This document shows, one piece after another, positions 6,820-55,505 of a stretch of 64,000 nucleotides of DNA (positions are counted from its first letter, which is position 1; every line of letters starts with the position of its first letter). Origin of the DNA: Agrypnia vestita (lineage: Eukaryota > Arthropoda > Insecta > Trichoptera > Phryganeidae). Made by a program: the position numbers and the translations under genes. Where the stretch lies: contig JADDOH010023735.1 of the NCBI GenBank assembly GCA_016648135.1, positions 168,166 to 232,165 on the forward strand, in the 5' to 3' direction. Below the pieces are notes generated by a model, which was not told the DNA's origin, searched no databases, and saw nothing but the letters and a program-made list of their open reading frames with translations.

Positions 6820-7323
6820 TCAATATATTTATATAAAAAGAAACCCGTGTTTCCCTACCCGCCAAGTTTTCTCCACAACCAGCCACAACCTCCCACCGGT
6901 TGTTATGGTGGTGGACAGCCCTTGCTGTCACATCGAAAATATGCGAGTTTGGTGGGGGTGGCTGTGCGTGGGTGGAAGTGGGCGATGAAAATGTGCTTTC
7001 TAGCACATTGTTTTGTTATGGGAAGGCCGCAAATACTTCAGATTGTTTCAAAATAGGCGCGCTGACCGTGTCGGTCAGTCTAGAAGGTTCTGGAAAAACC
7101 TGCTCTAGAAAGTTCTGGAAGGAGAAAGTTCTAGAAAATTCCTGAAAGTAGTATAAGGTTCTATGAGTGGCGGAATGTGTCGGTGTGTCTAGAAGGTTCC
7201 CGTACATTTGAATTTCTTGAAAGTTCTGGAAGGAGAATGTTCTAGAAGGTTCACGAAAGTTCTATGACGATCTAAACAGTGTTCTAAAAATCTACGCGTG
7301 CGAAGCCGCGCGGGCACCGATAG
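6820..7323 (+). mobile_element. Non-autonomous Helitron inserted in M1
   Basis: The left end TCAATATATTTATATAAAAA resembles the TCTATACTAATATATAAAG start of the second Helitron at 37150. The right end has a GC-rich hairpin (GTGC...GCAC) followed by CCGATAG and a host T, close to the canonical hairpin-CTRR-T terminus. Insertion is exactly between A and T of the M1 host sequence, with no duplication, as rolling-circle elements do. No Rep/helicase ORF is present. The 3' half is a tandem duplication with a period of about 110 bases, packed with heat-shock-element pentamers. Confidence 0.85.
7083..7262. promoter_or_regulatory. Dense heat shock element array
   Basis: Alternating GAA and TTC triplets spaced every 5 bases form six in-phase runs: 7083-7095 (3 units), 7108-7120 (3), 7124-7146 (5), 7192-7199 (2), 7214-7231 (4) and 7235-7262 (6). 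That is 23 pentamers. Three or more alternating nGAAn units are the established binding site of trimeric heat shock factor. The array is inside a Helitron, with no recognised gene next to it. Activity is inferred from motif geometry only. Confidence 0.75.
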
Positions 7324-23120: not shown

Positions 23121-25625
23121 CCCGATCACTGCCGCGACCGGATAAATCCGCGCTGCCGCGCAGTACCCCACACGCCGCGAACGGATAAATCCGCGCACAT
23201 CTTCACACAATTTTAGACGCGTAATAAAACATGAAATTGAAACGTCTCTTTTTGTATCGCCTACCGCCATCTATGGGGATTAATTTTAAGAATTTACTGT
23301 CACTCATATTGTTTCAAAAATGTTGTAATCTACATTTTTGTAAATTATTCCATCTGACAGCCGATAGAGCTCGCAAGGGTCATCACTTATCTTAATTTAT
23401 TACGGGGCATCCCGGAATACGGAAGTGTCGCTGTCGGATTCTTTGTTCACAGAGAGCTTTTTTTTTGATAAAATCAAACGTTTGCCGGTATTTTCTCGCA
23501 CTTGTGTTGTTTTCTTGTAAAGTTAAGGGATTATGTATTATTATAAATAAGTTTTCAGCGTTATAAGTGTGTTTATTATCAATTATTGTGAAGTGATTTT
23601 TATTATCTTGGAATTGGTTCACTTGTTAGTTTTTCTAAGTATTATTTTTTGAATTTAGGTTTATTACAATGGCAGAATTTTCAAATAGTGATTATGAAAT
23701 TCTTCAAACTGCCGAGTCTGATAACAGTGACGTAGAATTTGAATTGCCGGAGTTTTACGAGCCCTTTGAAGACGACGCCGAAATGGTCAATGATAATGTT
23801 GAATCAGGGAATGTTGACCAAGATAATTGTGGTGACAGAAGACCCGTCTTTCATTGGGAAAGTGATGCATTTTTACCGCAAGTGCACAATTTTGATTCTT
23901 CCTTTTCCGGCGCTAAATTGCTTACAAATGAAGGTATGCAAGAGGTTGATTTTTTCAAAATTTTTATGCATCAAACATTAGTTGAGCTCATTGTAGCCGA
24001 AACTAATCGGCAATATATAAATATAAAAAACAAGAGCACCTCAATAAGCTATAGAATGCAGCAATGGATCGATACAACCGTTGATGAAATGTATATTTTC
24101 ATGGGTCTCTGTATACTGATGGCAAGAAATACTAGAAACACCATTGAAGAGCATTGGTCCACGGATATTTTATTGCATTCGGCGATTTTTTCCGATGTTA
24201 TGCCAAGGAATCGCTTCCAAATTTTATTGAGTATGCTCCATTTTTGTAATAATGAGGAACAACCGCCTGGAGATAGACTTTTTAAAATAAAAGCAGTGGT
24301 GGACATGATTACAGCTGTATTCAAGGAACAAATGTATCCATACAAGAATGTGTGTATAGACGAGAGTTTGATATTATTCAAAGGTCGGCTGGCTTTCAAA
24401 CAATATATTCCAAACAAAGCAAGTCGTTTTGGTATAAAACTCTTTGTTATTTGCGATTGTACCACGGGATATGTGTTGAATTTTATTATTTATACGGGAT
24501 CTACCACTATTTATACAAGGCATGAGGATTTGGGAGTTTCTGGAAGCATCGTGATGACACTAATGGAGCCATACTTAAATCGAGGTCATTCTTTATTTGT
24601 AGACAATTGGTATACAAGCCCGTTATTATTTCAGTCACTGTTTGATAAAAAAACAAATGCATGTGGGACTGTCCGCAAAAATAGAAAACAGATGCCAAAA
24701 TTTAAGGAAAAACTTAAAAAAGGCGAAATGGAGGCTTATCACACAGACTCTATGGCGGCACAATTATGGAAAGATAAAAAAGATGTTACAATGCTTACAA
24801 CCCTTCACCCAAGCACACTTGCAGAAACAGGAAAAACTCATTATGCTACCAATGAACCAATTAAAAAACCTGAGAGCGTAATAGATTACAACAAAAATAT
24901 GGGGGCAGTGGATAAATGTGACATGGTGCTATCATCGGTTCATTCTTCAAGAAAGACAATGAGATGGTACAAGAAGATTTTTTTCCACCTTTTAGATCTT
25001 TGCCTCTTGAATGCACATGCCATATACCGCGAAAAGACCGGAAACCGTAAACCCATTGCAGATTTTCAATTAGAAATCAAACGTCAACTTTTTTATCAGC
25101 ATCGACAATCATCTGTGCCGAAAGCAGAATCTATGAGGAAACGGAAATCTGAGTTGCCATCTCGATTAGTAGAGAGGCATTTTGTGGGGAAATTTCCTGA
25201 GACCGCACAGAAACAACCAGCATCCAAAAGATGTGTGGTGTGTTCAGCAAAAAAGAAAAGACGAGAATCGCGGTATAGATGTAAACAGTGCGACGTAGCT
25301 TTATGTGTGGAACCATGTTTTGAACTGTATCATACGCTGGAGGATTATAGTAGGTAGAAGATAGTGTTTTAGAACATAATAAAAAAAAATCTTACTTTAT
25401 TTTGTGAACTTGTGACAACCCTGTTTCTATATTTGTGCCAGACAATTTTAGTGATTTAAGTGAAGAAAATGGTATTAATATTTCGTAAAACATCGTAATA
25501 TGGTGAGTTTTCACATTTTTAAATATAAGCTGCTTTTAAATTTCTCAATTTTATTTTTTTAAATTTGAAAAAAATGCCCGGCATACGGGGATGGTTAGAG
25601 TTTTGTATGGCCGGCAGGGAAAAGG
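23121..25625 (+). mobile_element. Complete piggyBac-family transposon
   Basis: 2505 bp between TTAA at 23117-23120 and TTAA at 25626-25629. The ends are short imperfect inverted repeats of the form CC-6 bases-CTGCCG. The left end carries two 23-base direct repeats (23131-23153 and 23174-23196, one mismatch) with the near-palindrome CGGATAAATCCG. The right end carries CCCGGCATAC and, inverted, GTATGGCCGG. A full-length transposase gene lies inside with 548 bases of leader and an AATAAA-type signal near 25377. Intact gene and flanks suggest recent insertion. Confidence 0.92.
23669..25357 (+). CDS. piggyBac transposase
   Basis: A 562-residue, uninterrupted protein of the DDE_Tnp_1_7 (piggyBac) family, which cuts and pastes DNA at TTAA in the nucleus. 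The N-terminus (residues 1-60) is strongly acidic, as usual for the family. The catalytic core follows, with the three aspartates at D231 (CIDESLILFKGR), D312 (FVDNWYTSPL) and D415 (MGAVDKCD). The conserved YIPNKASRFGIK block follows the first aspartate. The C-terminus (about 521-555) is a cysteine-rich domain with C522, C525, C538, C541, C546, C550 and H555, the zinc-binding domain that recognises the element's ends. Length is in the normal range (Trichoplusia piggyBac is 594). The ATG at 23669 is the first in frame and has a leader typical of these elements. No stops or frameshifts are seen, so the protein may be active. Whether it is an expressed transposon or a domesticated copy cannot be told here, but the TTAA borders favour a transposon. 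Confidence 0.95.
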   Translation: MAEFSNSDYEILQTAESDNSDVEFELPEFYEPFEDDAEMVNDNVESGNVDQDNCGDRRPVFHWESDAFLPQVHNFDSSFSGAKLLTNEGMQEVDFFKIFMHQTLVELIVAETNRQYINIKNKSTSISYRMQQWIDTTVDEMYIFMGLCILMARNTRNTIEEHWSTDILLHSAIFSDVMPRNRFQILLSMLHFCNNEEQPPGDRLFKIKAVVDMITAVFKEQMYPYKNVCIDESLILFKGRLAFKQYIPNKASRFGIKLFVICDCTTGYVLNFIIYTGSTTIYTRHEDLGVSGSIVMTLMEPYLNRGHSLFVDNWYTSPLLFQSLFDKKTNACGTVRKNRKQMPKFKEKLKKGEMEAYHTDSMAAQLWKDKKDVTMLTTLHPSTLAETGKTHYATNEPIKKPESVIDYNKNMGAVDKCDMVLSSVHSSRKTMRWYKKIFFHLLDLCLLNAHAIYREKTGNRKPIADFQLEIKRQLFYQHRQSSVPKAESMRKRKSELPSRLVERHFVGKFPETAQKQPASKRCVVCSAKKKRRESRYRCKQCDVALCVEPCFELYHTLEDYSR

Positions 25626-38831: not shown

Positions 38832-38992
38832 CTATCCCGTACCTGGATCTGGTGGACCTGGAGAACGGCTATCATGGCCTGATCAAGGAGAACGAGACGG
38901 TGGTGGAGGTGACCCCTCCCATCCGCGCCAAGGGGGACATCTGCTCCTTCCTCATTCTCAACAACAAGCACCACGGAGAAGCGCCCTTCGAG
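38832..38992 (+). CDS. Cals: Calsyntenin exon (first cadherin repeat, N-terminal part)
   Basis: 161 nt that start with two bases of a split codon after TTTCTTCACAG and stop before GTAACT. The frame reads PYLDLVDLENGYHGLIKENE, then a CSFLILNNKHHGEAPFE block. This fits the start of mature calsyntenin, where YHG.I.EN...V...PP.....G.IC.F is conserved from fly to human. Calsyntenins are type I membrane proteins of the neuronal Golgi, vesicles and postsynaptic membrane that bind kinesin-1 light chain. The exon is GC-rich in an AT-rich genome. The preceding exon with the signal peptide is not visible within 38 kb upstream, so intron 1 is probably long. Identification is by recalled family similarity. 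Confidence 0.9.
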
Positions 38993-39224
38993 GTAACTCT
39001 TCATAAGTAACTAACCTACTCACCATCACCCCCCATCACTGCGGGGGTAGCCTCTTCTGTCCCGACGCAGAACCCTCAGAAATCTTCCATTTATCTGGTC
39101 ATGTCAAGTCCCTATTTCACTATTAGGGGTATAAAAGTAAAGGCAGCAATATCCCACTGAGGTGTTTCTGAGATAAATACTGAAAACTTGTCACTACTTC
39201 TCTGGAATCTATAAAAACTATATT

Positions 39225-39620
39225 TTTTATTATTTATTAACGCCCTACAGGGCTTTTTACTAACAAATAGGTAAAGTGTACATTTATAAAATGGATAGTT
39301 TAATAACAAAATAATAATGACAAAGTGTTTTATTTTATATAAATTATGTATTTTATTGTTTTAATAGACTAGAAAAAAAGTTGTAATAAACTGTATGCAA
39401 TACTAAAATAAATGAAAAAAAAATGCAAATATATAAAGATAAATATAATATAAAGTAAAAAGCAAGTATAAAACAAAGCAGAAGCATAAGGAAAACAATA
39501 TAATTAAAATTCAAAAAATAAAAAATAAAAAGTAGTAATATACAGTGAAAAGTAATAGCACAAGCTTAGAAAATCATTATATAGTAAAAATGTTACATAA
39601 CAGTTAATTATCTCACTCAA
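39225..39620 (-). mobile_element. LINE 3' tail (family D), minus strand
   Basis: Starts with TATTATTTATT (AAATAATA tail inverted), then GCCCTACAGGGC, and an A-rich UTR follows. M3 sequence flanks it on both sides, so it is an insertion. A relative lies near 29095 in plus orientation. Confidence 0.5.
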
Positions 39621-39689
39621 CCAAAAATCAAAACAATAAATAAATATTTAACTTTTAATTACGGAAATCACTGCATTTTTAAAAGAAAT

Positions 39690-39866
39690 AGAGATGTGAA
39701 CATGGAATTGGTGTTGCATCAATATTCTTACCATCCTCAAACTAAGCTAAAACGCTTGTGCTATGAAAATAGGATTGTCTTGCCGGTGTTCTGGAATGTT
39801 ATCGAACCGACCGCCACATCACTAGGCGAGTGTCAAGACCATTGCGCCAACAAGCTACTCAATTTG
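39690..39866 (-). mobile_element. S1 tRNA-derived SINE, copy 3
   Basis: Minus-strand copy: TGTTGCATCAATATTCTTACC body, then TTCTGGAATG, degraded B box (ATCGAACCGACC) and CCAACAAGCTACTC head. Inserted in M3. Confidence 0.8.
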
Positions 39867-40132
39867 CCTTCAAATAGCGGACATTGCCGCTTTTGCTATT
39901 TACATAATTGAATATTGCTGTCTTTTCGTCTAAAATGGACGTCAACTCTCACTTTAGTATGAAGCGGTCATTTTGTCACGTGACACATCCTCGGGAGTTA
40001 TTTGGTTGAAGTGGATATTGCTGCCTTTGCTTTTAATAGCAATTTGATTGAAAACGTGATTTTGGAAGGAATGGAGCTGTATCTCCTATAAAATCTCCAA
40101 ATCTTAATTAGTAATCTTCGGTGACTGCATTT

Positions 40133-40673
40133 TAGCGAAGGGAAAAACTACATTTCAAAATGAAGACAACACGCACACTTTTATCAGTTTGAAGGCTACA
40201 GAGTGTGCGCTACTTTTGTAGCAGGTACCGAAACATTACACACTTCATCTACTTCAATAAACTACATGAAGTGAACTAATTGAAGTATTACAAAATTGTA
40301 TCTACTACAATGACCTACAAGAAGTACTACTTGTAATGTGTACTACTACAAAATTTTCAAATCCATGGGGGGGGGTTGTTTCAGTTTCCAAAATTTTCTT
40401 TATTCGACCAACACAAATATTTCAACCATTTTATCCACATCACAAAATCTCCGTCAATTATTTATTTTTATTTACATCAACTTCGCAAAAATATCGACCA
40501 AAATTTTCACATATTAAAATAAGTCACACTTCAATATCAAATTTGAATGTACGATTTGAAGTTTGTGTTGTTTGTAGTTTGCAGTTCACTTGCAAACGTG
40601 TGAAGCGTGCACTTCGGTATAATGTAGTACTACATTGTAGTTAGAGTACTTAGTACAGAGCGGACCCATCACT
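40133..40673 (+). repeat. R4 ACTAC-rich element, copy 2
   Basis: Same ends as 13397-14040 (AGCGAAGGGAAAAACTACAT; GAGCGGACCCATCACT). TGCAT occurs just before and just after the element within M3 sequence, a likely 5-bp target duplication. Contains a run of nine G. Confidence 0.75.
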
Positions 40674-40698
40674 GCTGCATCAAAACATTTTATTACAT

Positions 40699-40844
40699 CT
40701 TCTGGTTTGGGTCTTCTGGGGTATTATGCTGTGTTATTACGACCTTTCTGGCTTATTACGACGTTTCGGATCCCATTGCAGGGTCCATCGGCCAGAAAGA
40801 TCATAATAACACGGCATAATATCCCAGAAGACCCAAACCAGAAG
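40699..40844 (-). repeat. Foldback with a degraded hammerhead-like core
   Basis: Arms of 41 bases (40699-40739 and 40804-40844) are inverted copies (CTTCTGGTTTGGGTCTTCTG and its complement). On the minus strand the centre carries GGATCCGAAACGTCGTAATA preceded by GGCCGATGGACCC. It is the same layout as the CTGATGA...GAAAC motif at 44891, with the first core box mutated. Outer TTCTGGC/GCCAGAA words pair as stem I would. Confidence 0.55.
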
Positions 40845-42591
40845 ATTCTAAGTTGTGAAAACCTAAGAACATTCTTAATTTTTTTTTTACATTTTTTTTT
40901 AAATATATTGCTACCTTAGTGTATTGGACAGGTAGAATTATGATGGCAACATCATAAGACGACGTGATGGTGATGATGACCCGTCTGAAGTTGTGAATGT
41001 TGGCCCTTTCTGGGGCCCAGGTCCGTTGTATGGGCGAATGCCGTACGTGGGGACCCACCTCGCCTCCAAGCGGATAGTCAGCGCGGGCAGCGAGCCGGCG
41101 TTGCGATCCTAGCTGAGAGGATACTGCACCGACGCGATGTGTTGACATCTCCGACGGAGGGCGTTGGAAAAATTCCACGAAGAAATTGCATTTTTTGGTC
41201 TTATATTTGGCCGTTACTTACAACCTCGGCCTTCGGAAGCAAGCTTGATGACACCCGCGCAAATTTATCAGTTCCCGTGCGGAACACTTAGCTTCCACAC
41301 ATCTTTATTACCACTCTCTCCTCATTCATTTTTTCAATATGATCAAACCACCCAAGCGACCCTTTTTTAACCGTGTTCAAGATCAGCTATTAATAAATCC
41401 ATCCTCAATTTTACCATTGGCATGTCGCCAACCGGAAAGTTGATTGTTATAGCTCTGTTATCAGGTTAAGATTTCTAAACATTGTGGGAGAATGCTACGC
41501 AATCTTCACCGACTGCTTCTTCAATAGACATAAGTACGAGGGTTATTATAATTATGAACTACATTTTCCCATCTGCATTCTTTTTTACTCCCTTTATATT
41601 AACTCGTGGCGTCTGCTTGCTTGCTTGCCGTCGAAAAAACTTTGGATCGATTTTTAACCCTTTTCCCGTGATCCAATCGAGCTGAAACTTTGCAAGCAGA
41701 CACGTGGCGACGATCAAGAAGATCTAGCAAATTTTCGTTAAAAATAATAATAATCATAGTATAATTTTGGATTTTTCAAATTTTTAATGGTTTCTTCATA
41801 CAAGTTGTTTGGAGATTCCGACGCATATGGTAGACACGAAACCCGAAAATGAGAAAGGGAGTATTGTAAAAACTTGGGTTTTTATGGGTTACTTTTTTTA
41901 AATAAATTTTACCCGGCATGAATGAGGCGAGAAATTGTTACACCAGCTATTAGAGCTTTGCTGTCGAATTTTTGATACTATAATTGTGTATTAAGTATTA
42001 TTTACTTGGGATATTAATTATAGTATCTATTCAACAAGATAAGTAAATGAAATACTATGTTTAAGGTTGAAAAGAGTTTTTTTTGATTTTGTTTGAAACA
42101 GCAGTGTCCGTATTTTCTTTGAAAAGGTACAAGTTTTGGTAGTTTAACATTTTTTTCTTATAAAATTCTAACAAAATTACAACTTCTTTTATCAACATAA
42201 CTATAATTTTATTTTTCAATTGATTGAGCAACATTGTAGATAGACATTTTTAAAAAAGATTGATTATTCTATTTGTATATATTATTAGAAAATGATCACG
42301 GTTTTGATAAAAATGTATGACTTTCTATTTTACACATAAATAATTTTGGTCTGAAATTGAATAATTTAGAATCATTAGAAATTAGTAAAGAATGCGATAG
42401 TAAACAAAATATTATTAATAATCAATTGGATTTGACTACCAGCCCAATTCTAAAAATTTTTCCAATAATTGCGAGTAATCAAGAAATTCAGTAATAATAT
42501 TTAAAAAAAATATATTTTCAAATAATTTGGAAAAACAAGGAACAAAAGACATTTCATTAGAATTTTTTGACAGTTATACAGCACCCTGATG
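40845..42591. other. Calsyntenin intron interval with retroelement scraps
   Basis: Includes a GC-rich segment with a GATGGTGATGATGA tail (about 40960-41170), a degraded LINE fragment on the minus strand (41285-41400, matching the GSLRWFGH region) and the repeat at 41545-41890. AT-rich DNA with no features follows to 42591. Confidence 0.4.
41545..41890 (+). repeat. Dispersed repeat paired with 53645-53905
   Basis: Inverted relative to 53645-53905 (shared: TTGGATCGATTTTTAACCCTTTTCC, AGCTGAAACTTTGCA, TAATAATAATCATAGTATAATTTTGGATTTTTC in short blocks). It lies about 700 bp before the hammerhead-like motif at 42592, while its partner lies about 400 bp before the motif at 54315. It may belong to the same Penelope-like element. 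Confidence 0.6.
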
Positions 42592-42622
42592 ATGGAATGG
42601 TAATTTCTGAAACATGTTGGTG
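42592..42622 (+). ncRNA. Hammerhead-ribozyme-like motif
   Basis: CACC-CTGATGA, a 5-bp hairpin (GGAAT with loop GGTA and ATTTC), GAAA, a short palindromic stem III (ACATGT), a UU cleavage site and GGTG, which pairs perfectly with CACC as stem I. This is the order of a type I hammerhead with a minimal stem III, as in Penelope-like elements. One extra T flanks stem II on each side. Catalysis is not shown. Confidence 0.55.
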
Positions 42623-43154
42623 AAAAAAACTCGCATAAAAGTAGATATATGCAAATAAAATAATCAATATTTTTTATAACTATAAATACTCGTAAACTTA
42701 CTGTCAACACTGCACCTCTCCCCCCACTTCCTTACCATCAGCTAATGTGACGACGGAATTTGCATCACAAAAATAACATTAAAAAATCTGCGTCTGATAA
42801 CTTCTCGGGTACGACATACCCGACCTCACCCATGCCGGGTTATATAAGAAATCATTGTCACGGGATTGTAGCTGGGGCCAGTGGAAATTAATTATCGATT
42901 TATTAATTTAATTAATTCTTCTCCACTTGTTGATTAAAAATTGATATGTTAATTTGTTTATGTTGATTTTATGTGTGATTCATCGTTTAATTATGTTGCG
43001 GTACGCAGTATATGCAATTCTGATTTGTATTGTTTGATTTTGTATTTGAATATATCTGTGTTGCGTATTCTCTGTGAAAATAAATTAGATGCACAGTCTC
43101 ATGTAGTCTCTAATGGAGGGATTTACGTAACTAATTAACCATGCTGTCATCATG
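42623..43154. other. Unrecognised intron interval
   Basis: Contains a modestly GC-richer part at 42715-42880. No repeat or gene recognised. Confidence 0.35.
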
Positions 43155-43710
43155 CCGTTTATCTACAGGGGTAGGCAGAGAGGATAAAACGCTTTTGCTT
43201 TGGCCACATTCATACATCTTCTCATATGATTCCTCCGATTCTTGTAGTATCTGATCGTGCCAGGTCGTGGACGCCCTGCCCTCTATTCATGTTGCCTTCA
43301 ACACTCGCCCCATATATTTTTTTAACCACCCTTTCCTCACGCATACGTTTTACATGACCAAACCATCTCAGCACTCCTTTCCTTATTCCATCTACCACTC
43401 CACTGCCAGCATTACATTCACATCTAATTTGCTCATCTCTCACTCTATTGATCAAAGATTTTCCACACAAGCGTCTTAGTTAATTTTAGTTAATTTCCAC
43501 TGCATTCAGTCAACTTTCATTCCTTTTTTGCCATTTCCAGGTTTCACTTCCATACATCAGGGTTGTCACTTGAACACCATTATGTACCGCTAGTCTTGCT
43601 TCCTTTGACAGGTTCTTATTGGACATAATTGCATTTAGAGCACCATTTACTTTGACACCCGCAGTCACTCTCTTTTCGGTATTGATTAGTTCAGCTCTGT
43701 ACAATTTTAT
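43155..43710 (-). pseudogene. LINE reverse transcriptase C-terminus, broken
   Basis: Minus strand: MYRAELINTEKRVTAGVKVN, then LVYGSETW-like TLMYGSETWKW at about 43525, a frame break, and MCGKSLINRVRDEQI with VLRWFGHVKRMREERVVKKI at 43222-43470. YGSETW and RWFGHV are hallmark motifs of this LINE class. Antisense to calsyntenin within its intron. Confidence 0.75.
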
Positions 43711-44119
43711 ACCGTGGAGGGTACTTGCAACGTATTAATAATTGTTTGTGTGATTATTATTCAAATTAAACATTTAAATTTTCTATAAATGCATGTGCAA
43801 CATTTTTGACGATGGATTTATACGTCCCTCAGACTCAGACCGATATCCTGTTGCAAGTTTTCTTTAAATACATTATGGAGGGTGTGCCTGTTTAGTCTGC
43901 AGACAGTCGGGGCGAAGGGGGGGCTGAGTGTGACCGGTGCGAGGGAGGGGCGTTGATTCAGTGTGACATTACCCTCATTGAGTGCAATATTTACCACACG
44001 GAGAAATGGGGGCGGGTCCGCCTGGTGTTGTCTGTGAAACACCAGAGTGTTGTAAGCGACGTAATAATTTACATATTATCGCATTTTTTAAAATGTGCTA
44101 GTTCTTTTAAAAATGTCGC
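43711..44119. other. Unrecognised interval
   Basis: A G-rich, GC-richer segment at 43850-44050 has open frames on both strands but no recognisable protein or repeat. Confidence 0.35.
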
Positions 44120-44576
44120 AGTGAATTCAATAAATTATTTCATTTGACGTGTATCGAAGCAAATGAATTTTTTATACTCAGTATAAATTTCTTTCACCAT
44201 GGTCCAACATTTTATAAAATATAAGTAAGAAATATTGAAAAAAAAAAACAAATTTTGATGTCACCTGCTTAACTATCAACTGTGTAAAAACTTGTGATGG
44301 TTAAACCGTTATTTTAACTGGTTATTTTAGGCAGTTATTTTGGATTTGCATCTTATTGTAGCGATGATTGATAATTAACATAGTAACGATGTTTGCCTGT
44401 CGAATTGCAAAAATCAGTTGTACATAATCAAATACAACTCTCAAATAACCCCGTTAGTGTGTCACCGGATAAAAAAACATCACTAGTAAAAACCCAAAGT
44501 GCCAACAATATTTTTTATTCCAAATTGAACGAAGAAAACTTCCCTGAAGTTTTTGCTACTAGCTATGAAGCACCTG
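44120..44576. mobile_element. M1 variant, copy 14, rearranged
   Basis: Holds the M1 interior (TTATTTGACGTGTATCGAAGC) and the right end TTTGCTACTAGCTATGAAGC ACCTG before TA. About 185 bases near 44300-44485 are foreign. The left arm is missing. Confidence 0.75.
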
Positions 44577-44851
44577 TATAAGAACTATACACAAATGTAT
44601 ACAAAAATTTCTAAAAAAGGCTTGTTATTATTAATCATATAACTATGTAGTATTGATATGAAACAAGTAATATTTTTGAACTATTTTATTTTTAATAAAA
44701 TAATGTGTGTGTCGTAACTTTTCGTCAGACTACCATGAAAGTAACTCGTGTCGAATATTAAATATTAAAAATCCATTCGCTTTGCTACAAGTTAAATAAA
44801 AGAATTATAACTTTCAAAAATATTCTTAGGATTTTCACTGCCATTAAGAAA

Positions 44852-45103
44852 CTTCTGGTTTGAGTTTTCTGGGTTATTCTGCCGTGTTTCTACGACATTT
44901 CGGATCCAGGGTCCATCATCAGGCTGATGTGTTGTAACAACACATTCTAGGGGTCCTAGTAGTGAAGGAAATAACTCATAATATCCCATTGCAGGATCCA
45001 TCGTCAGGTTTGATGAGTTGCTACAACACATAAACCTGATAATGGACTGCACAGTGGGATCAGAAACGTCAGCCAGAAGGGTCGTAGAAGCACGACAGAA
45101 TAA
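44852..45103 (-). repeat. Foldback with hammerhead-like motif
   Basis: Outer words TTATTCTGCCGTGTTTCTAC and GTCGTAGAAGCACGACAGAA are inverted. On the minus strand 44891-44926 reads CTGATGATGGACCCTGGATC CGAAATGTC: a CTGATGA box, a short stem II (GGA/TCC), GAAA and a GUC cleavage triplet. Stem I pairing is weak. Related to 40699-40844. Confidence 0.5.
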
Positions 45104-45337
45104 TATATATAAGAATATAACTATCTTTCTGAGACGGCATATAACCATAATTTGTTAATGAATACTATTAACCAATGTATGCCATGAATAATGATAATAA
45201 AACAAATTTTATTCGTGCAATAGTTACATTAATTTAAGAAATTTTTAAGAAACATCATTTTCTATTGTGAGCAGAGAGTTCAAAGTACTGTAATATTCAT
45301 TTGGCGAGGCACTTCTAACGACGATTGCACGTTTCAG

Positions 45338-45459
45338 GTTGTGGTGACAAACGGATATGAAGCGACTCTGCGCGTGCGCCACACCCTCAACTGCGAGAAG
45401 AGACGCAACTACAAGTTTGACATTGCCGCCGTGGGCTGTGACGGAAGCTACTCCAACAC
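45338..45459 (+). CDS. Cals: Calsyntenin exon (first cadherin repeat, C-terminal part)
   Basis: 122 nt after GTTTCAG, beginning in frame and ending before GTAAGT with two bases of a split codon. It encodes VVVTNGYEATLRVRHTLNCE, KRRNYKFDIAAVGCDG and SYSN. The LNCE...Y.F.I.A..CDG pattern is the conserved second half of the first calsyntenin cadherin repeat. Its frame joins exactly to the exons at 38992 and 50849. The intron before it is 6.3 kb and full of transposons; an M1 fragment begins only about 25 bases after the donor. Confidence 0.92.
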
Positions 45460-45482
45460 GTAAGTTGCACTGTATTGACACT

Positions 45483-45635
45483 GATGAAAAATGCAAACAT
45501 TGATGTCGGACATCTCCATAACTATTGTGACATGTCGGACATCTCCATAACTATTGTCATGGTTGCTCGAACATTTTCAATTAAAAATTAAGACGAATCC
45601 ACCTAAGTATTGTGGACTGGTTCTGTTATACCCTG
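45483..45635 (+). mobile_element. M1 right-end fragment (copy 15)
   Basis: TGATGTCGGACATCTCCATAAC is present twice in tandem, followed by the right arm ending CTGTTATACCCTG. It sits immediately downstream of a calsyntenin splice donor. Confidence 0.75.
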
Positions 45636-46387
45636 TGGTGCATAACAAATGGAATTGCAGGAGGAAGGATGCTAGCATATATCTTTTTCTGGATGCTGGT
45701 TCCGGATTCTTCTTCCCCTGCAAAGTTTCATCATAAAAACGTGGGGCGAGGTGTTTCCTTTCCAATAAAAATGTCCCGGGAACACTCGTGGCGGTAGTGA
45801 TACTTTTTCATAAGCGGTTTATGAGGCGGAGTAACTCAAACTGTGTGTATGCGACGCATAGACGGCATAATTCTATTGCTAGCGGATCGGCAGGTGAAAA
45901 AAGGTAGATAGGTAAAGAACAAGGATTCGTTGGAGCGGGAACAATCTAAACTCTAATTTTTATTCCACGTTTTAAACAACGCTATATTTTTTTTATCATT
46001 CCATATATTTTCTTTACTATCTTCTTTATATTAGTAAAAACCAGAATAATTTATCTTTTAGGGGAAAAATATTTTTTTTTACGAACCTCTTTTTAAAAGT
46101 CCCATTTTTGCCTGTCGTTGCAAATAATATTGAGCCTAGATACAAGATGGTGGCAGATAAAAGTAAAATAAAAATTGTTTCGAGTTTCACACTGATGGGG
46201 TTACCTATTGTGAAAAAATGAAAAATATCCGAAAGAGGCATGATGACAGATTTTGAAATAATCTTCTATAATGTAGGCACACGTCTCCTATTATTGAAAA
46301 TAACATTAATTCAGTAATAAATTAAGTTTTTACGCAAATAATTGCATTCTCATCTACCAAAACGCCTCTGGTGCCATGGCGACTATG

Positions 46388-46470
46388 TGACGTCAAGTCT
46401 TGGTAAACATTGCATTGTGTCTATGACAACAGTTCAAAGACACGGTGATGGGTGCTTAGGCGTGACGTCA
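46388..46470. promoter_or_regulatory. Pair of perfect CRE sites
   Basis: The full palindrome TGACGTCA occurs at 46388-46395 and again at 46463-46470, inside a short GC-richer unique stretch of a calsyntenin intron. This is the consensus for CREB/ATF dimers. Two full sites 75 bases apart are unlikely by chance in AT-rich DNA, but function is not shown. Confidence 0.4.
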
Positions 46471-46884
46471 TTCGCTCTGACCGGTGTTTCAGTTAAAATG
46501 GCCAATTGCAGAATTTTATACTTTTATTGAAAATCTTATTAATCTCAATGAGTATATTAAAACTGGATCATTTTTTAGAATCCTTTCAAAATATATTCTT
46601 CTCTAAAATCACTTATTCTTTAATTCTGTCATCATGCCTATTGTCAAGCAAACACATCCGGGCGATTTCTCATGAAAATGACTCTGAATAAATAAAAATA
46701 AAATTCTACATGTAAAATTCAACTATTTGTTTTATATTACTGTAGTTATGTGTAATCGTGCAAATATTCAGTGTGATTATTTGAAATGTTGCATCGCAGA
46801 AATCTTATTCAGCAGCTCTGGTAGATGTTTGATTTTGTGGAATGGTGCATTATTTAAATGATAATATTTTGATATTTGCATCCG

Positions 46885-47045
46885 TTGCAGAATATCTCGG
46901 TCGAGTTAATTCCACCTGCGGCCGGCATTAAACTCGTTTCCCGACATGTTTCGCATTTAATTAAATCTAGAATGGACAAACAGACACCCGTTGCGGCCCG
47001 GGGTTTGTTTTGTAACGTTTAATAATTTGGGTCAACCGCGCAAAA
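46885..47045. other. GC-richer unique island
   Basis: Unique, GC-richer, with TTTAATTAAAT and other homeodomain-like words; possible intronic regulatory element. The rest of 45636-47117 is AT-rich with nothing recognised except the CRE pair. Confidence 0.3.
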
Positions 47046-47117
47046 TATATACTCTGCCGTGGTAAATAACGGTACAATCGAATCAATGTAGTTTTATTTG
47101 TACTGAATTGAATCAGT

Positions 47118-47310
47118 GCAGTTTTATTTTATTTTTTATTTTCATTTATTGGTTTTCTTACAGCCATATAATTAATCAATCTTGAAAAAAAACAATAATT
47201 GATGTACAGAGTTTTGGGCCAATTACAAGAAAACACATATATACAATCGATAAAAAAATAAGAAAAAACATGTCCAATAGTGAGTTTGTCTGAGTGTGTG
47301 TATTTGTGTG
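47118..47310 (-). mobile_element. LINE 3' tail (family B), minus strand
   Basis: Reverse complement of 27480-27735: A/T-rich tail, then TTGGTTTTCTTACAGCCATAT, TTGTAATTGGCC (inverted) and ACATGT. Directly followed by a family C tail. Confidence 0.7.
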
Positions 47311-47311
47311 T

Positions 47312-48975
47312 TTATTTATTTATTTATTTTGTTTTGGGAAAAATTAACAGCAAAACAATCTTAAAAATTTTCCACTGAATTTAAAAATTTACTTTAAGGC
47401 GGCACAGCCGATTCATAAACATGCATAGCTGTCAAATTACATTGATAGATCATGTCCTTTCAAGCCGTGCGCGACATGTCATCTGAGCGCAAATCGAGTG
47501 AAAATTACACGTTCGTTACATGTTTATGGTACATACGTTGCTAAAACAGTAAGGTTTGATAGAAAGAGATGGTCGTATATTCTTTGCTTTCGTCCGCGTC
47601 AGGTATCCCCACAGAAGTACCTCACGTATCAAAATATTTACTTATTTAACTTTAGACAAATAATCTTATATTATTTGAGCCGACTTATTATTTTCCGTAA
47701 ATAATTTAAGAATCGTAGTAATAATTCTGAACTCCTTTTTAAATCAATGCATATCGTAATATGACAATACAAAACAATCACGTAGCCCCACGTGCGTACT
47801 GCGTATATCAAAATGTATTATTTTATCTATCGACAAATTCCTGTATTTTATTTTCGTCCAATAATTACTTACTGAATAGAATTTAAAAAACATATTAATA
47901 ATTCTGAAATACTTTTCATGTCATAATGAATACCTTTAATATTAAACAAGAAATAAATATATGGGAGACGCGAACGCGCATGCGCACGGCGCGTACAGTA
48001 TGTATCTTGATACCTCAAATGATCTGGAACAATTGTTGAATTAGGATAATACCGAAACTGACATGTGACGCAAGTTCAAAGTTTAAAAAGGATGAAACTG
48101 TTCAAAAATTCATATAAAACCTTAATATATGGGAGATATCAATTGCTTTTGAGCGTATTATATAATAATAATTCATATAAATGTCAAATTTGGCGTAAAA
48201 GTACAAGGAATAGTGAAATAAACGACGAGGAATATTCGGCTACATGAACACGACTGACCCCTGCCGTGGCCAGACGGCATCTAACATGGATTCTGACGTT
48301 AACGATGTCGTTTTTCATACTTTAGAATTTTTATTTAAAAATAATAATTAACGTGTTTTTTATAAAAAATTTAGCTTTTTAATAGTGAATGAAGACTCAA
48401 AGTGCGAATATAGATACAATATATCGTTTAAAATCATCTTTTTATATGAATAAACAACGTTTGAAAATGACCAAAAAACGTAAATATTTAAGCATGTTTC
48501 AAAAATTATATCTTTTTTAATATTGAATATTTCTTAATTTCCTACGTACGGATTCTAGATAATACAGCAAACTTTATATGTATAAAAAAAACATAGTATG
48601 CTTACATACAAATTTTCAACGAACGAATCGTCGCCCGGGAACATTAAAAACGTTTTTTTTGCCGCGGCCTGTGGATTAATGCTTATATTTTTCTTATTTA
48701 TTATAAACAATGTTCAGTTTATTACTTTTATATAAGAACAAAGGTTCTATCTAAGTTATCGCCCTAAAAAAATTGCAATCTACCATATAAATTCTGATAT
48801 AAATGAATAATGAAAACCCACATTTTCGTAAAAAACGCCGAAATATGCATTCGCAGTGAATGTACCGCCTTAACATACATTAATAGCGAATGGGAGGGTG
48901 GAGGGGAATGTGGGACGGGAGTAGAAGGGAAGATATAATGTACGAGTTTTGTATGTATCGAGTTTTGACATTGTG
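47312..48975 (-). mobile_element. LINE 3' tail (family C), minus strand, split
   Basis: 47312-47398 and 48870-48975 together reconstitute the end of family C as at 28780-29010. The break is exactly at a TTAA that is now duplicated around the 1471-bp insert at 47399-48869. Confidence 0.8.
47399..48869. mobile_element. TTAA-flanked non-autonomous element
   Basis: TTAA at 47395-47398 and 48870-48873. The tips are inverted (GGCGG and CCGCC), with looser matching beyond them (GCGG.ACA, ATGCATA inverted). The interior holds GC-rich words such as CGCGCATGCGCACGGCGCG near 47975, but no transposase. Clean interruption of a LINE tail defines the borders. Probably piggyBac-like; short tips make the family assignment tentative. 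Confidence 0.75.
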
Positions 48976-49116
48976 GGTATTCCAGCAAATTACTAATATC
49001 GACCACCTCTATCGATAATGCAGAAATGTGATACTCGTTTAGTGGCAAGAACACTCCGTAGGGGTGAAACGAAAGACCAAAGTATTATCTGACACTTTAA
49101 TCAAAATTCCTTGAGA

Positions 49117-49343
49117 TTTAAAATATGTTTTACTTTACTTTGTAATACACACACACAATATAAGCTATTAAATTACAACTATAGTTTCGAGAGGAGCAGT
49201 CCCTCTCATCATCAGGTACTAATAAATAATAGTTATTATCTGTACCTGATGATGAGAAGGAATGCTCCTCTCGAAACTATAGTTGTAATTTAATAACTCA
49301 TATTGTGTGTGCATTACAAAGTAAAGTAAAACATATTTTAAAT
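49117..49343. repeat. 225-bp palindrome with two head-to-head hammerhead-like motifs
   Basis: Arms 49117-49206 and 49239-49343 are nearly perfect inverted copies. Each arm carries, reading outward, TAC-CTGATGA, a strong stem II (GAGAGG...CCTCTC or GAGAAGGA...TCCTCTC), GAAA, a palindromic stem III (ACTATAGT), a UU cleavage site and GTA pairing with TAC. One motif is on the + strand (49243-49287) and one on the - strand (49174-49218). Stem I is only 3 bp and one extra U precedes stem II, so activity is uncertain. Confidence 0.6.
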
Positions 49344-50164
49344 TATAATGTTGCACCACGAAGTATCTGCCAAATCTTTCAATAATATTCCTTGAGATTG
49401 TTCCGCATGCATGCAGGTAGGTACTTTTTAAAATGTGTTTATATTTGTTCGGAAAACCAATAGCTAACAATAATTAAGTAAATATAAAGAATGGGAAACA
49501 TAAAAGCCAATTACAGGTTTTCACTGGTAGTGACAAAATATTGTATTTGCGTGGTGTACATACATAAATGATAAGTATATTGATGAAACTATATATAATT
49601 GATTTAGTGGAAAATAATAACATATATTTTATTTGAAAAATGGATCGGATAGCGAGCGTCGCACATGAGTAGGGTTATTTTGAAATAAGTCTAAATTGTG
49701 CTATTCTGTGAGTGCATTAAATTTGTTACTAGTTCGCCACAAGTATGAGTTTTGCCTGCAGTTAGTAGAAACAAGGGGAGTAAAAAGACGGTACTCTGGT
49801 ACTTAAATCGCCAGTCGCCAATACTTTCATCAATTATGTTACGGGCATGTTTAATTTCTCCACAGTTTAGGAGATGTCAAGAAAACTATGTTTTATTTTA
49901 GTAGCAATTTTAATCATTTTTAAAATAACTGCCGGTTTGAATGGAAAAATTAATGTTTAAAACATTGAAATTCAGTTTCTGTTTGATCTTAATGTAGGAT
50001 GATACCTGGTTATAAGGGGGTGATTAAACCTTGTGTTTTTACCTACATCCAATCCGAGTTCTTAACTTACTAGCAACGTTCCTTCTAACCTGTGCATGTG
50101 ATTTGCCAACATAAAAAATTTTAACAAACCTAACAAAAATAAAAATTGACTGCTCATAAAGTTC
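49344..50164. other. Unrecognised intron interval
   Basis: AT-rich calsyntenin intron sequence with no gene or repeat recognised. Confidence 0.35.
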
Positions 50165-50415
50165 ATATAGTGTTTTTGTGTGCTCGCCACCCGTGGCTCG
50201 AGGCGCGGGATTGGTGAGGAGGCGAGCGCATAAAACCGGGGATGCTCGGGCGCACCGGGCTCTTATTCCCGGGTCATGCTTTCGATAGACAGGCTCTAGT
50301 AAGCTCGGTCGGCAGCGAATCATATTGTTGTAATAAACTGGAGTAGTTACGAGAATGTGTTTTACTCCACCTGAAATCCCATCACTGCGTTCCCAGAATA
50401 CACTACAGTTCATCA
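50165..50415 (+). other. Possible solo LTR or promoter-like fragment
   Basis: A GC-rich segment has a CATAAAA box (about 50229) about 30 bases upstream of CTCTTATTC and an AATAAA at about 50333, in the order U3-R-U5 of an LTR. Neither a TG...CA border nor a target duplication could be fixed. The 128-codon frame on the other strand at 50039-50425 has no features. Confidence 0.35.
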
Positions 50416-50454
50416 GAAATGTCAAATCAAAATTAATTTAATAATATGTATGTA

Positions 50455-50713
50455 TTAAAATATCATTTTATTTTACTTGTATTAAAGGGAATTAATTTCT
50501 CATATTCAACATAAGTTACTGTAATGATAGTCCAACGTTTTACAAAAAATAAGTAATAAGAAGTATTTGAAAAAAATGCAAACTTTCATGTCGCATATCT
50601 CCACAACTTTTGATATTAGGTTATGGTTGCTTGAACATTTTCGACTCGTAATTAATCAATACTTAACAGGAATCCACCTGTTAAGTATTGCGGACTAGCT
50701 CTGTTACACCCTG
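50455..50713 (+). mobile_element. M1 right-half fragment (copy 16)
   Basis: Runs from the centre (TTTTATTTTACTTGTATTAAAG) through TCTCCACAACTTTTGATATTAGG to GACTAGCTCTGTTACACCCTG before TA. It includes a small duplication AATCAATACTTAACAGG. It lies 135 bp upstream of the next exon. Confidence 0.8.
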
Positions 50714-50848
50714 TATATTACTTTCTCTCATAGTGCTCAAATTAGACTTTCAAACTGCGGTAAGTTTTTTTTTGGCAACACAGTGATCCAAAGAGTTAAG
50801 GGTATTCAGCGCCACGTGTATAATATAAAATATTTTGTATCACCGTAG

Positions 50849-51057
50849 CGCCGTGGTTCACATCACGGTGGTGGACATCAACGAGTACCCGCCCGTGTTT
50901 GAAGAGTCCTCGTACGTGCGCGAGGTGGAGGAGGGCCGCCTGTACCAGGAGATCGTGCGCGTGGAGGCCACGGACCGCGACTGCACCCCCAAGTACGGGG
51001 ACGTCTGCAAGTACGAGATACTGACGGCGGACCAGCCCTTCCTGATTGACAATGAAG
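50849..51057 (+). CDS. Cals: Calsyntenin exon (inter-cadherin linker and second cadherin repeat)
   Basis: 209 nt after CACCGTAG, starting with one base that completes the split codon and ending with one base before GTAGGT. It encodes AVVHITVVDINEYPPVFEES, then EVEEGRLYQEIVRVEATDRD and CTPKYGDVCKYEILTADQPF. DINEYPP is the DxNExxP calcium-binding linker of cadherins, and ATDRD supplies the DxD motif of the second repeat. The pattern ..C.P...D.C.YEI.T...PF is specific to calsyntenins. A 98-codon antisense frame here is a shadow of GC-rich coding. Confidence 0.95.
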
Positions 51058-52082
51058 GTAGGTCTGATGAAATATAAACATCACAACACCAAAAACATTT
51101 TTTTTTACATTATTTTTTCCTACAATTTTTATGTATAAATGTGTAATACCACAATCTTCCAAATGATTTTCCATTGATTAAAACATATTATTGCACAATA
51201 CAGAAATGTCCAAGTTTGATAAAATAAATATTAGATTACATTTTATACTTATAAAGCCATTAACTACTACAATAATCTTTTCACTGAGATACGCTGCATT
51301 GACCTTTCAAAACAAAATAAAAATTTAAAACCTTCTTAAAATCCAACTTAAATTTGTAAATCGTTTAAATTTGAAGCTTTTTTCTAAATACTTAAATATT
51401 ATTAATTATCTAATTATCTTCTATTACCACCCGTATTATTAAATGATTCACATATGTACCTATATACGAAATAAGAACCGAGGCTCAAGAGCTTCTCTTC
51501 ACTGATGAGATCTACATGACAAAAGTCTAAAAAAAATGTCAATTTAATTTTCAATTTTTTAATTTCAATTTATTTATTTTTATATTAATATGTTTAATAC
51601 GTAAATATTATTAACAAGTGAGACAATATACAAACAACAAAATATCAAACGTATATAAATTCTTTTTTTTTTCAATTGATTCATAAATTAAATATTTCTA
51701 TAAGTGTTTTAGATTACTAAATAAGGAAATCGTTTGATAGTAAAAGGAACATTGACAAAATCGGATCGACAGATTTTTTTTTTGCTCTCTTGTAAACTTC
51801 TAAATAATCACTACGCCCTTTTGGCTTTCTACCCTCGATATGGTCTTCTGAGCGTCTCTGGACGCGACCATACCATACTCTTCGGTTAATATAATTAAAT
51901 ACATTAACAGAAAATATGACACAAAGTCAATGACCAACTATAAATTTTTAAAAAACTTGACAGCAATCTGGTCGTAATTTTACGATAAAGATTGAGAAGA
52001 ATCGTTAATTGTAATCTGTAAACTTGACTTTCTCAAATGGCGATGCTAGATAAAGGTGTTAACATCCTCCATTCTGTTGCAG
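51058..52082. other. Calsyntenin intron
   Basis: AT-rich. A short scrap at about 51790-51895 (ACTACGCCCTTTTGGC, CTGGACGCGACCATACCATA) resembles LINE-type 3' sequence. Otherwise nothing is seen. Confidence 0.5.
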
Positions 52083-52229
52083 GAGTCATCAGGAACACGG
52101 AGCCCCTGGACTACGAGCGCTCGCACAACCACATCCTGTCGGTGGTGGCCTACGACTGCGGCATGCGCCAGTCTGTCCCGGTCATGGTGACCATCAAGGT
52201 CAACAGACAGTGCAACGCCGGCTGGAAAG
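52083..52229 (+). CDS. Cals: Calsyntenin exon (second cadherin repeat, end)
   Basis: 147 nt after TGTTGCAG, with two bases completing a split glycine codon and one base left before GTCGGT. It encodes GVIRNTEPLDYERSHNHILS, VVAYDCGMRQSVPVMVTIKV and NRQCNAGWKG. The words DG.I.NTE.L.Y...H.....AYDCG and C..GW.G are conserved in calsyntenins and lead out of the second cadherin repeat. The donor is GTCGGT, weaker than the GTAAG/GTGAG donors elsewhere in the gene. Confidence 0.95.
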
Positions 52230-52622
52230 GTCGGTTCACTGCGCTATCATATTATTAACCACGTATTTGCGTGTTATCAGGGGCGTGCAGTGAGATAGAT
52301 GTCTTTCCTTAAGCATATATTTTTGAAAAGCAAACTAAATAAGAGGTATATCTCGTAATATTTCTGTCACAATAATTAACGTATTATTCAGATTTTAATA
52401 TTTTGTAATATTCTGCCAGATAAATATTTAATTTAGATATTTTTCCCCAAATATAAATATGCTTAAATAAAAGCCATGTTTTGTTCTCACAGCACGCCCC
52501 TGCGTGTTATTAACTATTTGAATTGATTAATATTGCTTGCGAAGTGGACTGTGTATCTTTTTAAGATAGAATATGTTATATGTATCTTAATACTAAATTA
52601 CTTTAAAATTTTTGTAATATGA

Positions 52623-53182
52623 GGGGTATAAAAGCAAAGGCCGCAATATCCCACCGAGGCGTTTCTGAGATAAATACAAAACAACCACAACTATTCGGGG
52701 AAATTTCTTTGGAATCTATAAAACCTACATTTTATTAGAAATAAAACGATTACCACCTCAGTTTTCCTTTAATATATGTGAATAAATAAATATTTGACTT
52801 TTAAATATGGATATTGCTGTGTTTGCTACCGAATAGTGGACATGTTGCTTTTGCTATTTTTACATAATTGGATATTGCTGTCTTTGCTGTTTCAGTCTAA
52901 AATCAACATCAACTCTCACTTTAGTATGAAGCGGCCTTTTTGTTATGTAATACAACATCCTTGGGGTTTGATTGGTTGAAGTGGATATTGCTGCCTTTGC
53001 TTTTTACACTACAAGGATATTACTGTCTTTGCTTTTAATAGTGATACGGAAGCATGATTTTGGAAGGAATAGAGTTACATTTCCTAGAAAATCTCAAATT
53101 CAGTACATTCTAAATTAGTTATACTCCGTGACTGCATTCAAAACATTTCTTTTTTGTATTGCTGCCTTTGCTTTTATACCCC
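52623..53182. mobile_element. M3 MITE, full copy
   Basis: 560 bp with inverted ends GGGGTATAAAAGCAAAGGC and GCCTTTGCTTTTATACCCC. Inside are four or more copies of GGATATTGCTG(TC)TTTGCT-like words, probably transposase-binding repeats. It fills most of the 1-kb intron between two calsyntenin exons and ends about 90 bp before the next acceptor. Confidence 0.85.
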
Positions 53183-53274
53183 ATATATGTAGGCTCTGAG
53201 ACTAGTGACGCATTTTTTAAATTTCAATCAGTCTTGTTATTAAACCAATTTTCTCTTGATTCTCTCTCGACCAG

Positions 53275-53481
53275 GAGTGGCAGAGCGCGTGGACTACCCT
53301 CCCGGCGGTGGCCCCCTCTCCCTGTTCCCCACGGCCAATTTGGAAGAGTGCGTTTCCGCCAAATGCGGCGTGGACTCCATTCCCCAGCGGCTGCGGGCCA
53401 CCGTCTCGCTGCGCAGTTCGCACATCGGCAAGGGCTGCGACAGGGACACCTACTCGGTGCACAGCCAGAGGAGGATATGCG
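53275..53481 (+). CDS. Cals: Calsyntenin exon (linker into LamG-like domain)
   Basis: 207 nt after TCTCGACCAG, phase 1 at both sides, donor GTGAGT. It encodes GVAERVDYPPGGGPLSLFPT, NLEECVSAKCGVDSIPQRLR, ATVSLRSSHIGKGCDRDTYS and VHSQRRICG. The block SSHIGKGCDRDTYS is nearly invariant across calsyntenins. It follows the YxPGxGxxxLFP segment and marks the start of the LamG/concanavalin-like domain. Three overlapping shadow frames reflect GC-rich coding. Confidence 0.97.
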
Positions 53482-53644
53482 GTGAGTAATTCAATATTAG
53501 TCTCGGCATTAGTGTTTAGTGCAGTACAATTCTATTCCACTCTTCTTAAATAAATGATGTTTAACTCAACTTAAGATGTTTAAATAGCAATAACTATTCC
53601 TAATTTCTAAACATCTTTTGATTTTTTTTTTGATATTTGAGAAA

Positions 53645-53905
53645 TTTTATATAAAAAAAACCTCACCCAAGTTTTTATTATACTCCCTTTCTCATTGAAA
53701 CAGGTTTCGGGCTCGAAAATTAAACAATATATAAATTGTTAAAATTTCGAAAAATCCAAAATTATACTATAATTATTAAATTTTTTTAAATGAAAATTTG
53801 TTGGATCATTTTTATCATCGCCACGAGTATGCCTGCAATGTTTCAGCTTGATTGGATCACGGGAAAAGGGTTAAAAATCAATCCAAAGTTTTTCGTCAGA
53901 CAAGC
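53645..53905 (-). repeat. Dispersed repeat, inverted copy of 41545-41890
   Basis: Shared blocks: CCAAGTTTTTA..ATACTCCCTTTCTCATT, TCGAAAAATCCAAAATTATAC, GGATCACGGGAAAAGGGTTA, all inverted relative to 41545-41890. The 89-codon frame at 53790-54059 lies in the repeat and is not a gene. Confidence 0.6.
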
Positions 53906-54059
53906 CATAGAATTACAGATAGATAAATTAGAAATTTTAGAAATAATAAAAAGTGTAAGCAAATTAAATATTATAAATAATCGCAAATATTTTTTATTTT
54001 TTTATTTTTTATTTTTATTTTTAATTTTTTTTCACATTAGTTTTTTTTTTAAAATATAG

Positions 54060-54229
54060 ATGCGAACACGAAATGCGTGTCGCGTCAATATTCTTACTAT
54101 TCTCAAAATAAGCTAAACGCTTGTGCTATGAGGATAGGACTAACTTGCTGGTATCCTGGAATGGGGCTCGAACCGCCGACCGTCAAGATCACTAGGCGAG
54201 CGCCATGACCACTACACCAACAAGCTACT
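54060..54229 (-). mobile_element. S1 tRNA-derived SINE, copy 4 (best minus copy)
   Basis: Minus strand: head GTAGCTTGTTGGTGTAGTGG with B box GGTTCGAGCCCC, then the S1 body to GATGCGACACGC/ATTCG. It is the best preserved tRNA-like head of the family. Confidence 0.85.
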
Positions 54230-54314
54230 CTTTTTAAATTCTTAGTTATTCAACTTCTATATTTTTGTTATTTTTAATGTCTACACTTCCATTTTTAATT
54301 TTAAGTATATGTTG

Positions 54315-54361
54315 TATCCTGATGAAGGTACCCGGGTCATCGGTTCCGAAACACATTGATA
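54315..54361 (+). ncRNA. Hammerhead-ribozyme-like motif
   Basis: TATC-CTGATGA, stem II GGTACC...GGTTCC (one mismatch), GAAA, a short stem III region ACACAT, a UU cleavage site, and GATA pairing perfectly with TATC as stem I. Layout as at 42592. It lies in a calsyntenin intron, sense to the gene, so a working ribozyme could cut the pre-mRNA; that is inference. Confidence 0.5.
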
Positions 54362-54553
54362 ATTCAATAAATAGTAGTTTCATACAAATTCTGTTTTTTT
54401 TTATCAATACCAATCTTTCTTGTTTGAATCATCAAGAAATATTGTATAACTTAATCATTATTCTTGTTTAATCATATATTATTTGAAAAAAAAAAACAAA
54501 TGATGGGTAAGGAAATTATAGAAAATAAAAAATATAATTTTGTATATTCTCAG

Positions 54554-54634
54554 GAGCCAGCTCTCAATCTGTTGATCTGCTGCCCAGCCCTGGGGTGGGA
54601 GCCGAGTGGACCAAGACCCTCAAAACTGATGAAG
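54554..54634 (+). CDS. Cals: Calsyntenin exon (short LamG segment)
   Basis: 81 nt after TATTCTCAG, phase 1 on both sides, donor GTAGTA. It encodes GASSQSVDLLPSPGVGAEWT and KTLKTDEG. It corresponds to the ELLPSPS...W...L.TD.G stretch between the CDRDTYS block and GHDSDQ in other calsyntenins. Being a multiple of three with symmetric phase, it could be skipped without frame change. Confidence 0.9.
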
Positions 54635-55322: not shown

Positions 55323-55505
55323 GCCACGAGTCGGACCAGATATTCTCCTTTGACGGAGTGACCACGGCCGCCGTTATCCCGGAGACGGTGTTGAACCACT
55401 CCCTGTCCAGCACCTTCTCCGTATCCACGTGGATGAAGCATCAGGAGCACCCCGACATGGACAAGCACCGCAAGGAGCACATCATCTGTCTGGCCGATGA
55501 CCACA
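55323..55505 (+). CDS. Cals: Calsyntenin exon (LamG-like domain)
   Basis: 183 nt after CCATCTAG, phase 1 on both sides, donor GTTAGT. It encodes GHESDQIFSFDGVTTAAVIP, ETVLNHSLSSTFSVSTWMKH and QEHPDMDKHRKEHIICLADD. GH.SDQ.F.F.G and FS.S.WM.H are the conserved strands of the calsyntenin LamG fold; ..KE.I.C..D leads to the next exon. Confidence 0.97.

Follow-up and report, generated by a model that had tools for sequence, protein, structure and literature searches.

The window analysed here, 64,000 nucleotides of the caddisfly Agrypnia vestita with a GC content of 33.2%, raises the question of why a short mobile element should carry a dense array of GAA and TTC triplets, and whether these are HSF binding sites that serve the element, its host or neither. 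As a trimer, HSF recognises arrays of inverted nGAAn units, and a heat shock element (HSE) array is defined by at least three such units at 5-bp spacing. The initial annotation had read six runs of 3, 3, 5, 2, 4 and 6 units, 23 in all, at a 5-bp step between positions 7083 and 7262, which is exactly what was found on the forward strand. The array opens with two runs of three pentamers (7083..7095 and 7108..7120) and one of five (7124..7146; six in the family consensus), after which a run of two (7192..7199) starts the second repeat unit and is followed by runs of four (7214..7231) and six (7235..7262). Five of these runs, three to six pentamers long, thus qualify as HSE arrays under the definition above. 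The two tandem units cover 7061..7277 on the same strand, and their measured spacing of 109-111 bp agrees with the period of about 110 that had been proposed; long relatives of the element contain more of them. The array lies in the right half of the 504-bp element and makes up a third of this short form.

That the arrangement is beyond chance was borne out when the 180 bp were put through 20,000 dinucleotide shuffles, none of which produced a run of five or more pentamers. Units in runs of at least two averaged 0.75 in the shuffles, with a maximum of 9, against the 23 observed. Alternating GAA/TTC pairs in the array stand exactly 5 bp apart in 17 cases, 4 bp apart in one and 6 bp apart in none, and no run of four or more pentamers occurs in the 64-kb window outside 6820-7323.

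The carrier had been described as a Helitron at 6820..7323, and both its nature and its limits held up, as aligned copies with their flanks stop matching at those ends and the family shows insertion between A and T, a 5' TC and a 3' CTAG. The copy in the window is a whole non-autonomous element on the forward strand, 504 bp long, lying between an A (6819) and a T (7324) and 94.9% identical to the family consensus. Its 5' end (6820..6857, forward strand) comprises the TC terminus, an AT-rich tract and a conserved 20-mer, AAGAAACCCGTGTTTCCCTA (6838-6857), while its 3' end (7294..7323, forward strand) has a predicted GC-rich hairpin and a terminal CTAG that has decayed to ATAG. In the aligned copies, the family begins, after an A, with TCAATATA(TA)n...AAGAAACCCGTGTTTCCCTA and closes with the predicted GC-rich hairpin and CTAG, followed by T. 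Across 69 scanned loci, the base before the 5' end was A in all 38 recognised ends and the base after the 3' end was T in 39 of 40; these are Helitron ends. The 3' ends of both the short family and its long relatives fold into a hairpin, the former no better than shuffled sequence (z -0.46) and the latter better (z -2.32). No gene is evident in the element: the longest stop-to-stop frame overlapping the window copy has 102 aa, and in three long copies whose ends both lie near, the longest frames reach 81-109 aa. Elsewhere in the window, a 40-base remnant at 37521-37559 matches the 3' end of this Helitron at 85%. At two further loci, L009 (G000:C149) and L016 (G000:C19169), paired Helitrons adjoin head to head or head to tail 7 bp apart, which suggests insertion into or beside earlier copies.

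The extent of the family was assessed in the species' own assembly (1.32 Gb; 1,321,690,220 bp in 19,947 contigs). With the element as query, and 40 candidates scored among 5,246 found at first look, at least 43 matches were obtained: besides the element itself there were 39 copies of full or nearly full length (92-94% identity), a further match at 79% and two fragments. The 5' 20-mer is matched exactly at 2,206 + 2,213 = 4,419 places in the genome, and its reversed control at none. The check on other copies that the initial annotation had called for was carried out on the first 40 of 100 listed 20-mer places, taken in contig order and picked by the 20-mer alone, a sample biased towards less diverged copies because an intact 20-mer was required. 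The in-phase array was kept, with a run of at least three pentamers in 36 of these 40 copies and a run of five or six in 25 of them, runs being counted through all 701 fetched bases in copies lacking a recognised 3' end. In the four copies without an array (L053, L068, L075 and L079), similarity to the family ends before the array begins. The consensus of the 30 best matches has runs of 3, 3, 6, 2, 4 and 6.

Perfect six-unit HSEs number 8,508 in the genome, with none for the reversed pattern, and perfect four-unit HSEs 28,809, with 78 for the reversed pattern, the four-unit count including overlapping windows within one longer run. All of the first 15 six-unit sites listed, which fall in about 12 elements, belong to the HSE Helitron family or to a long relative. 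On the measure applied to Caenorhabditis, Helitrons are therefore the main source of strong HSEs here as well, with membership followed site by site for those 15 six-unit sites. As a rough check on decay, the mean divergence of 5.1% predicts that 39% of the 18-base cores and 35% of the 20-mers survive intact. If every element had two six-unit runs, 4,419 20-mers would then correspond to about 9,800 such runs intact, and 8,508 were found. A single scan of viral contigs for the array pattern gave no matches. The array is a family-wide trait present at thousands of sites, an extent that the earlier description of one copy had understated.

The short form shares its 5' end with a long form that has many units of about 117 bp and a 3' part of its own, about 170 bp long, ending in GAGCGAAGCCGGGCCA..CAGCTAG before a T. 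Its members include L044, one of the 15 six-unit sites, and several of the 40 sampled copies; a search with the long-form 3' part gave 1,191 first-look candidates, of which 40 were scored and 10 of those fetched. The long relatives measure about 1.8-2.2 kb and hold 95-123 pentamers each, and the array constitutes most of the element. Three have both ends recognised: L100 (2,169 bp) with 112 pentamers in runs of at least two and 84 in runs of at least three, L105 (1,899 bp) with 115 and 77, and C26 (1,778 bp) with 95 and 67. A fetched stretch that starts inside its element (L099) has 123 pentamers, and another whose 5' end was not found (L106) has 124 across its whole length. The remaining six of the ten fetched stretches, four of them with no recognised 5' end, have 22-69. 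Between 10 and 13 units were recognised in each of the five richest stretches, and the consensus of 110 long units contains 13 pentamers in runs of 4+3+6. The array may have grown inside the element, or the short form may have been cut from the long one. About 0.7 kb downstream of the long array-bearing Helitron at L044 (G000:C4:129655-132682, ~2231-2350) lies an open frame, rich in CpG, that has an early Met and a putative splice donor and is a candidate heat-induced gene.

Whether the GAA and TTC cores have been under selection was addressed at three levels, and the answers differ. Comparison of the short-family units with the long-unit consensus, in which a core pentamer removed from unit A by an 8-nt deletion was left uncounted, found changes at 1/75 core, 10/38 spacer and 12/98 other positions (core against the remaining 22/136, p=0.0004). 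By base, the same comparison gave 0/25 against 9/63 at G/C positions (p=0.055) and 1/50 against 13/73 at A/T positions (p=0.008). The two halves of the short consensus likewise differ at 2/39 core and 21/73 non-core positions (p=0.003). Among the 110 long units, conservation was 0.884 in cores, 0.772 in spacers and 0.862 elsewhere; spacers were less conserved than cores (p=0.0017; p=0.01 when stratified by base), and this difference shrank or reversed when the labels were slid along the unit. Cores did not differ from all non-core positions, either over all units (p 0.21) or in five single elements (0.12-0.30). G is thought to be the base that HSF needs most. At G/C positions, however, no extra core conservation was seen among the units (core 0.793, spacer 0.818, other 0.842), and within the pentamer conservation is lowest at the G/C position (0.78), the two A/T positions scoring 0.94 and 0.91. 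An early reading of constraint inside the long arrays was weakened by these position-wise and base-wise analyses.

Changes that arose after insertion were followed in 54 copies, namely the 25 of the 40 in the 20-mer sample that reach nearly full length, together with the 30 best matches less L008, a duplicate of L007, which left 29. Singletons per non-CpG site amounted to 0.64 in cores, 0.71 in spacers and 0.70 outside the array, and these similar rates give no support to host-level selection on present copies. Since the tests of core retention favour selection, and the G/C and singleton tests oppose it, we consider that selection on the cores was likely, though not proven, in the lineage that spread, while in today's copies it is, as judged from the singletons, absent on average and decay after insertion is neutral.

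We put at about two in three the probability that the element in the window belongs to a large non-autonomous caddisfly Helitron family whose HSE array is a predicted target of HSF, that this binding helped the element while it spread, and that its copies then decayed neutrally. The genome has three matches to an HSF DNA-binding domain, and the C. elegans HSF-1 domain binds four- and five-unit HSEs cooperatively, according to the available text of PMC9148306. Upon heat, trimeric HSF would bind the arrays cooperatively and might open the chromatin or start transcription at the element. The retained GAA/TTC cores suggest that such binding favoured the Helitron itself during its spread, despite its having no evident gene. 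Each inserted copy would then have decayed neutrally, and what remains would be a stock of strong predicted HSF sites spread across the genome, of which some may render a neighbouring gene heat-responsive. Because the element has no evident gene to drive, any benefit would have had to act in cis on its copying or by way of a partner transposase. A more specific version, which we advance tentatively, is that HSF binding is a cis requirement or booster of transposition in this gene-less Helitron. HSF would open or unwind the element for a transposase supplied in trans to nick and copy it, and the best arrays would have won, giving arrays of more than 100 pentamers and leaving many thousands of strong predicted sites.

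Several points listed above could also be read as the mark of neutral cargo, in which an HSE-rich repeat that the Helitron had captured or grown by chance, an hsp promoter being one conceivable source, hitchhiked to high copy with no effect on transposition or host. The neutral decay of present copies, the unconstrained G/C core positions among units and the lack of an evident gene all agree with this account, which we nevertheless think unlikely, given that cores were kept relative to the rest in the amplified lineage and that neither of the two hsp70 promoters examined could have yielded the array by simple copying. The latter conclusion follows from two of the six full-length HSP70 matches: neither 4.8-kb locus, 1.5 kb of upstream sequence included, has a perfect run of three, and the unit has a single weak match there, 24 bp long (E 0.005) and in an HSE-like stretch. 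Simple copying from hsp70 promoters was rejected on these grounds for the two loci; other short matches in this comparison, which involve the fetched stretches of long elements, span 21-90 bp. The HSEs at the two loci read are imperfect only. HSP70 genes also form clusters at G000:C554 and G000:C1099, each with several long matches that are intronless in the matched part.

The contrast of 28,809 perfect four-unit matches with no perfect run of three at two examined hsp70 loci lends some appeal to the idea that the many thousands of strong predicted sites act as a sink, titrating HSF so that the heat shock response is buffered or delayed, or gathering into heat-induced nuclear foci. We judge this improbable, as there is no sign of selection keeping the sites after insertion and most copies may be hidden by silent chromatin. 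It is more improbable again that the window copy acts as a local enhancer making calsyntenin heat-inducible, as the initial annotation supposed when it placed the Helitron upstream of that gene or in its first intron. A strong predicted site does share a contig with forward-strand exons at about 38,840 to 57,000, which we take to be calsyntenin and for which cadherin matches give support. However, the nearest recognised coding exon, at about 38,840, lies some 31.5 kb downstream of the Helitron, no first exon, promoter or start site was located, and the window copy is one among thousands of insertions, 5% diverged and with one six-unit run reduced to five. The link to calsyntenin is unsupported, and this copy is most likely an incidental member of the stock of predicted sites; the Helitron, the array that fits the HSE definition, the in-phase copies and the insect setting are the parts of the original interpretation that stand. 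Finally, the repeats could act as DNA hairpins or be a plain minisatellite and not HSF sites at all, since TTCTAGAA is palindromic and Helitrons can contain tandem repeats. The strict 5-bp phase with variable two-base spacers, the lack of any alternating pair at 6 bp and the change of spacers while cores stay make this scarcely credible. STAT sites have a 3-base gap and were set aside, the gap here being 2 bases.

A partner for the family was sought among 102 Helitron_like_N matches in the genome. No autonomous source similar to the family consensus was present in the stretches around five of them (C401, C6958, C19569, C53 and C19526), and no HSE run of three was found in C401 or inside the element at C19569 and C19526. 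Two of these places, L047 (G000:C19569 ~84,086-89,640) and L093 (G000:C53), hold copies of an autonomous Helitron that are 99.9% identical over 2.1 kb, with an open frame of 1,567 aa, a 3' hairpin and CTAG before a T, and no similarity to the HSE family. By the near-identity of its copies, this Helitron is recently active.

The initial annotation pointed to Caenorhabditis as the established case of Helitrons with HSF sites, and this agrees with the available text of PMC6927752 (Garrigues et al. 2019), in which HSE-bearing Helitrons are bound by HSF-1 and rewire heat responses. There, 61.4% of C. elegans HSEs (11,527/18,766) come from Helitrons, each of eight HelitronY4_CE copies has more than 100, and a scan of UCSC genomes with annotated Helitrons, using the motif printed as NGAANNTCCNNGGAN, found enrichment only in its three Caenorhabditis species. 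For an insect Helitron with HSEs, search listings of the open PubMed Central literature gave no precedent; the word 'helitron' is absent from the main text of the A. vestita assembly paper, as far as available (PMC7936034), and from a Trichoptera genome-size paper (PMC8881205), which has one 'rolling circle'. The caddisfly family resembles the worm Helitrons in its dense HSE clusters and in supplying most HSEs of its genome. What is new is the insect host, apart from Caenorhabditis as had been anticipated, a non-autonomous family with the array in 36/40 sampled copies, an array that forms most of the long element, and very high numbers of predicted HSF sites. Autonomous copies whose HSEs drive their transposase belong to the Caenorhabditis pattern; in the caddisfly, no HSE-bearing autonomous copy was found in the stretches examined around five of the 102 matches.

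Human satellite III, the repetitive HSF-binding DNA of nuclear stress bodies, forms heat-induced nuclear foci. It too is repetitive DNA with HSF sites, predicted ones in the caddisfly, but consists of satellite arrays at few loci and not of dispersed transposons. ONSEN of Arabidopsis belongs to the LTR retrotransposons, and the genes driven by its sites are its own. The caddisfly Helitrons would share with ONSEN, as presented in the available text of PMC8376061, the exploitation of the heat response by a mobile element, and differ in having no evident gene. For the same reason, two ideas that are confounded in worms come apart in this family, one in which HSEs serve as a transposase promoter and one in which they influence transposition in cis. 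The association of Helitrons with HSF sites had been regarded as possibly confined to Caenorhabditis, and a second, distant case would mean that the heat shock response has been taken up repeatedly by Helitrons. A natural genome with repeat-borne perfect HSEs far above chance is also useful for learning how HSF finds its proper targets.

Three other features were observed along the way. At 23639-25357 of the window lies a 572 aa open frame of a piggyBac-like transposase, its best match 57% identical over 88% and a shorter one 72% over 58%. A 198-bp tandem duplication (91%) at 60325-60716 lies within a long open frame that gave no Pfam match. Outside the window, G000:C1261:119252-123364 (L107) has mitochondrial-like ND2, COX1, COX2 and COX3 with a broken COX1 frame in a 141-kb contig, and is probably a nuclear copy.
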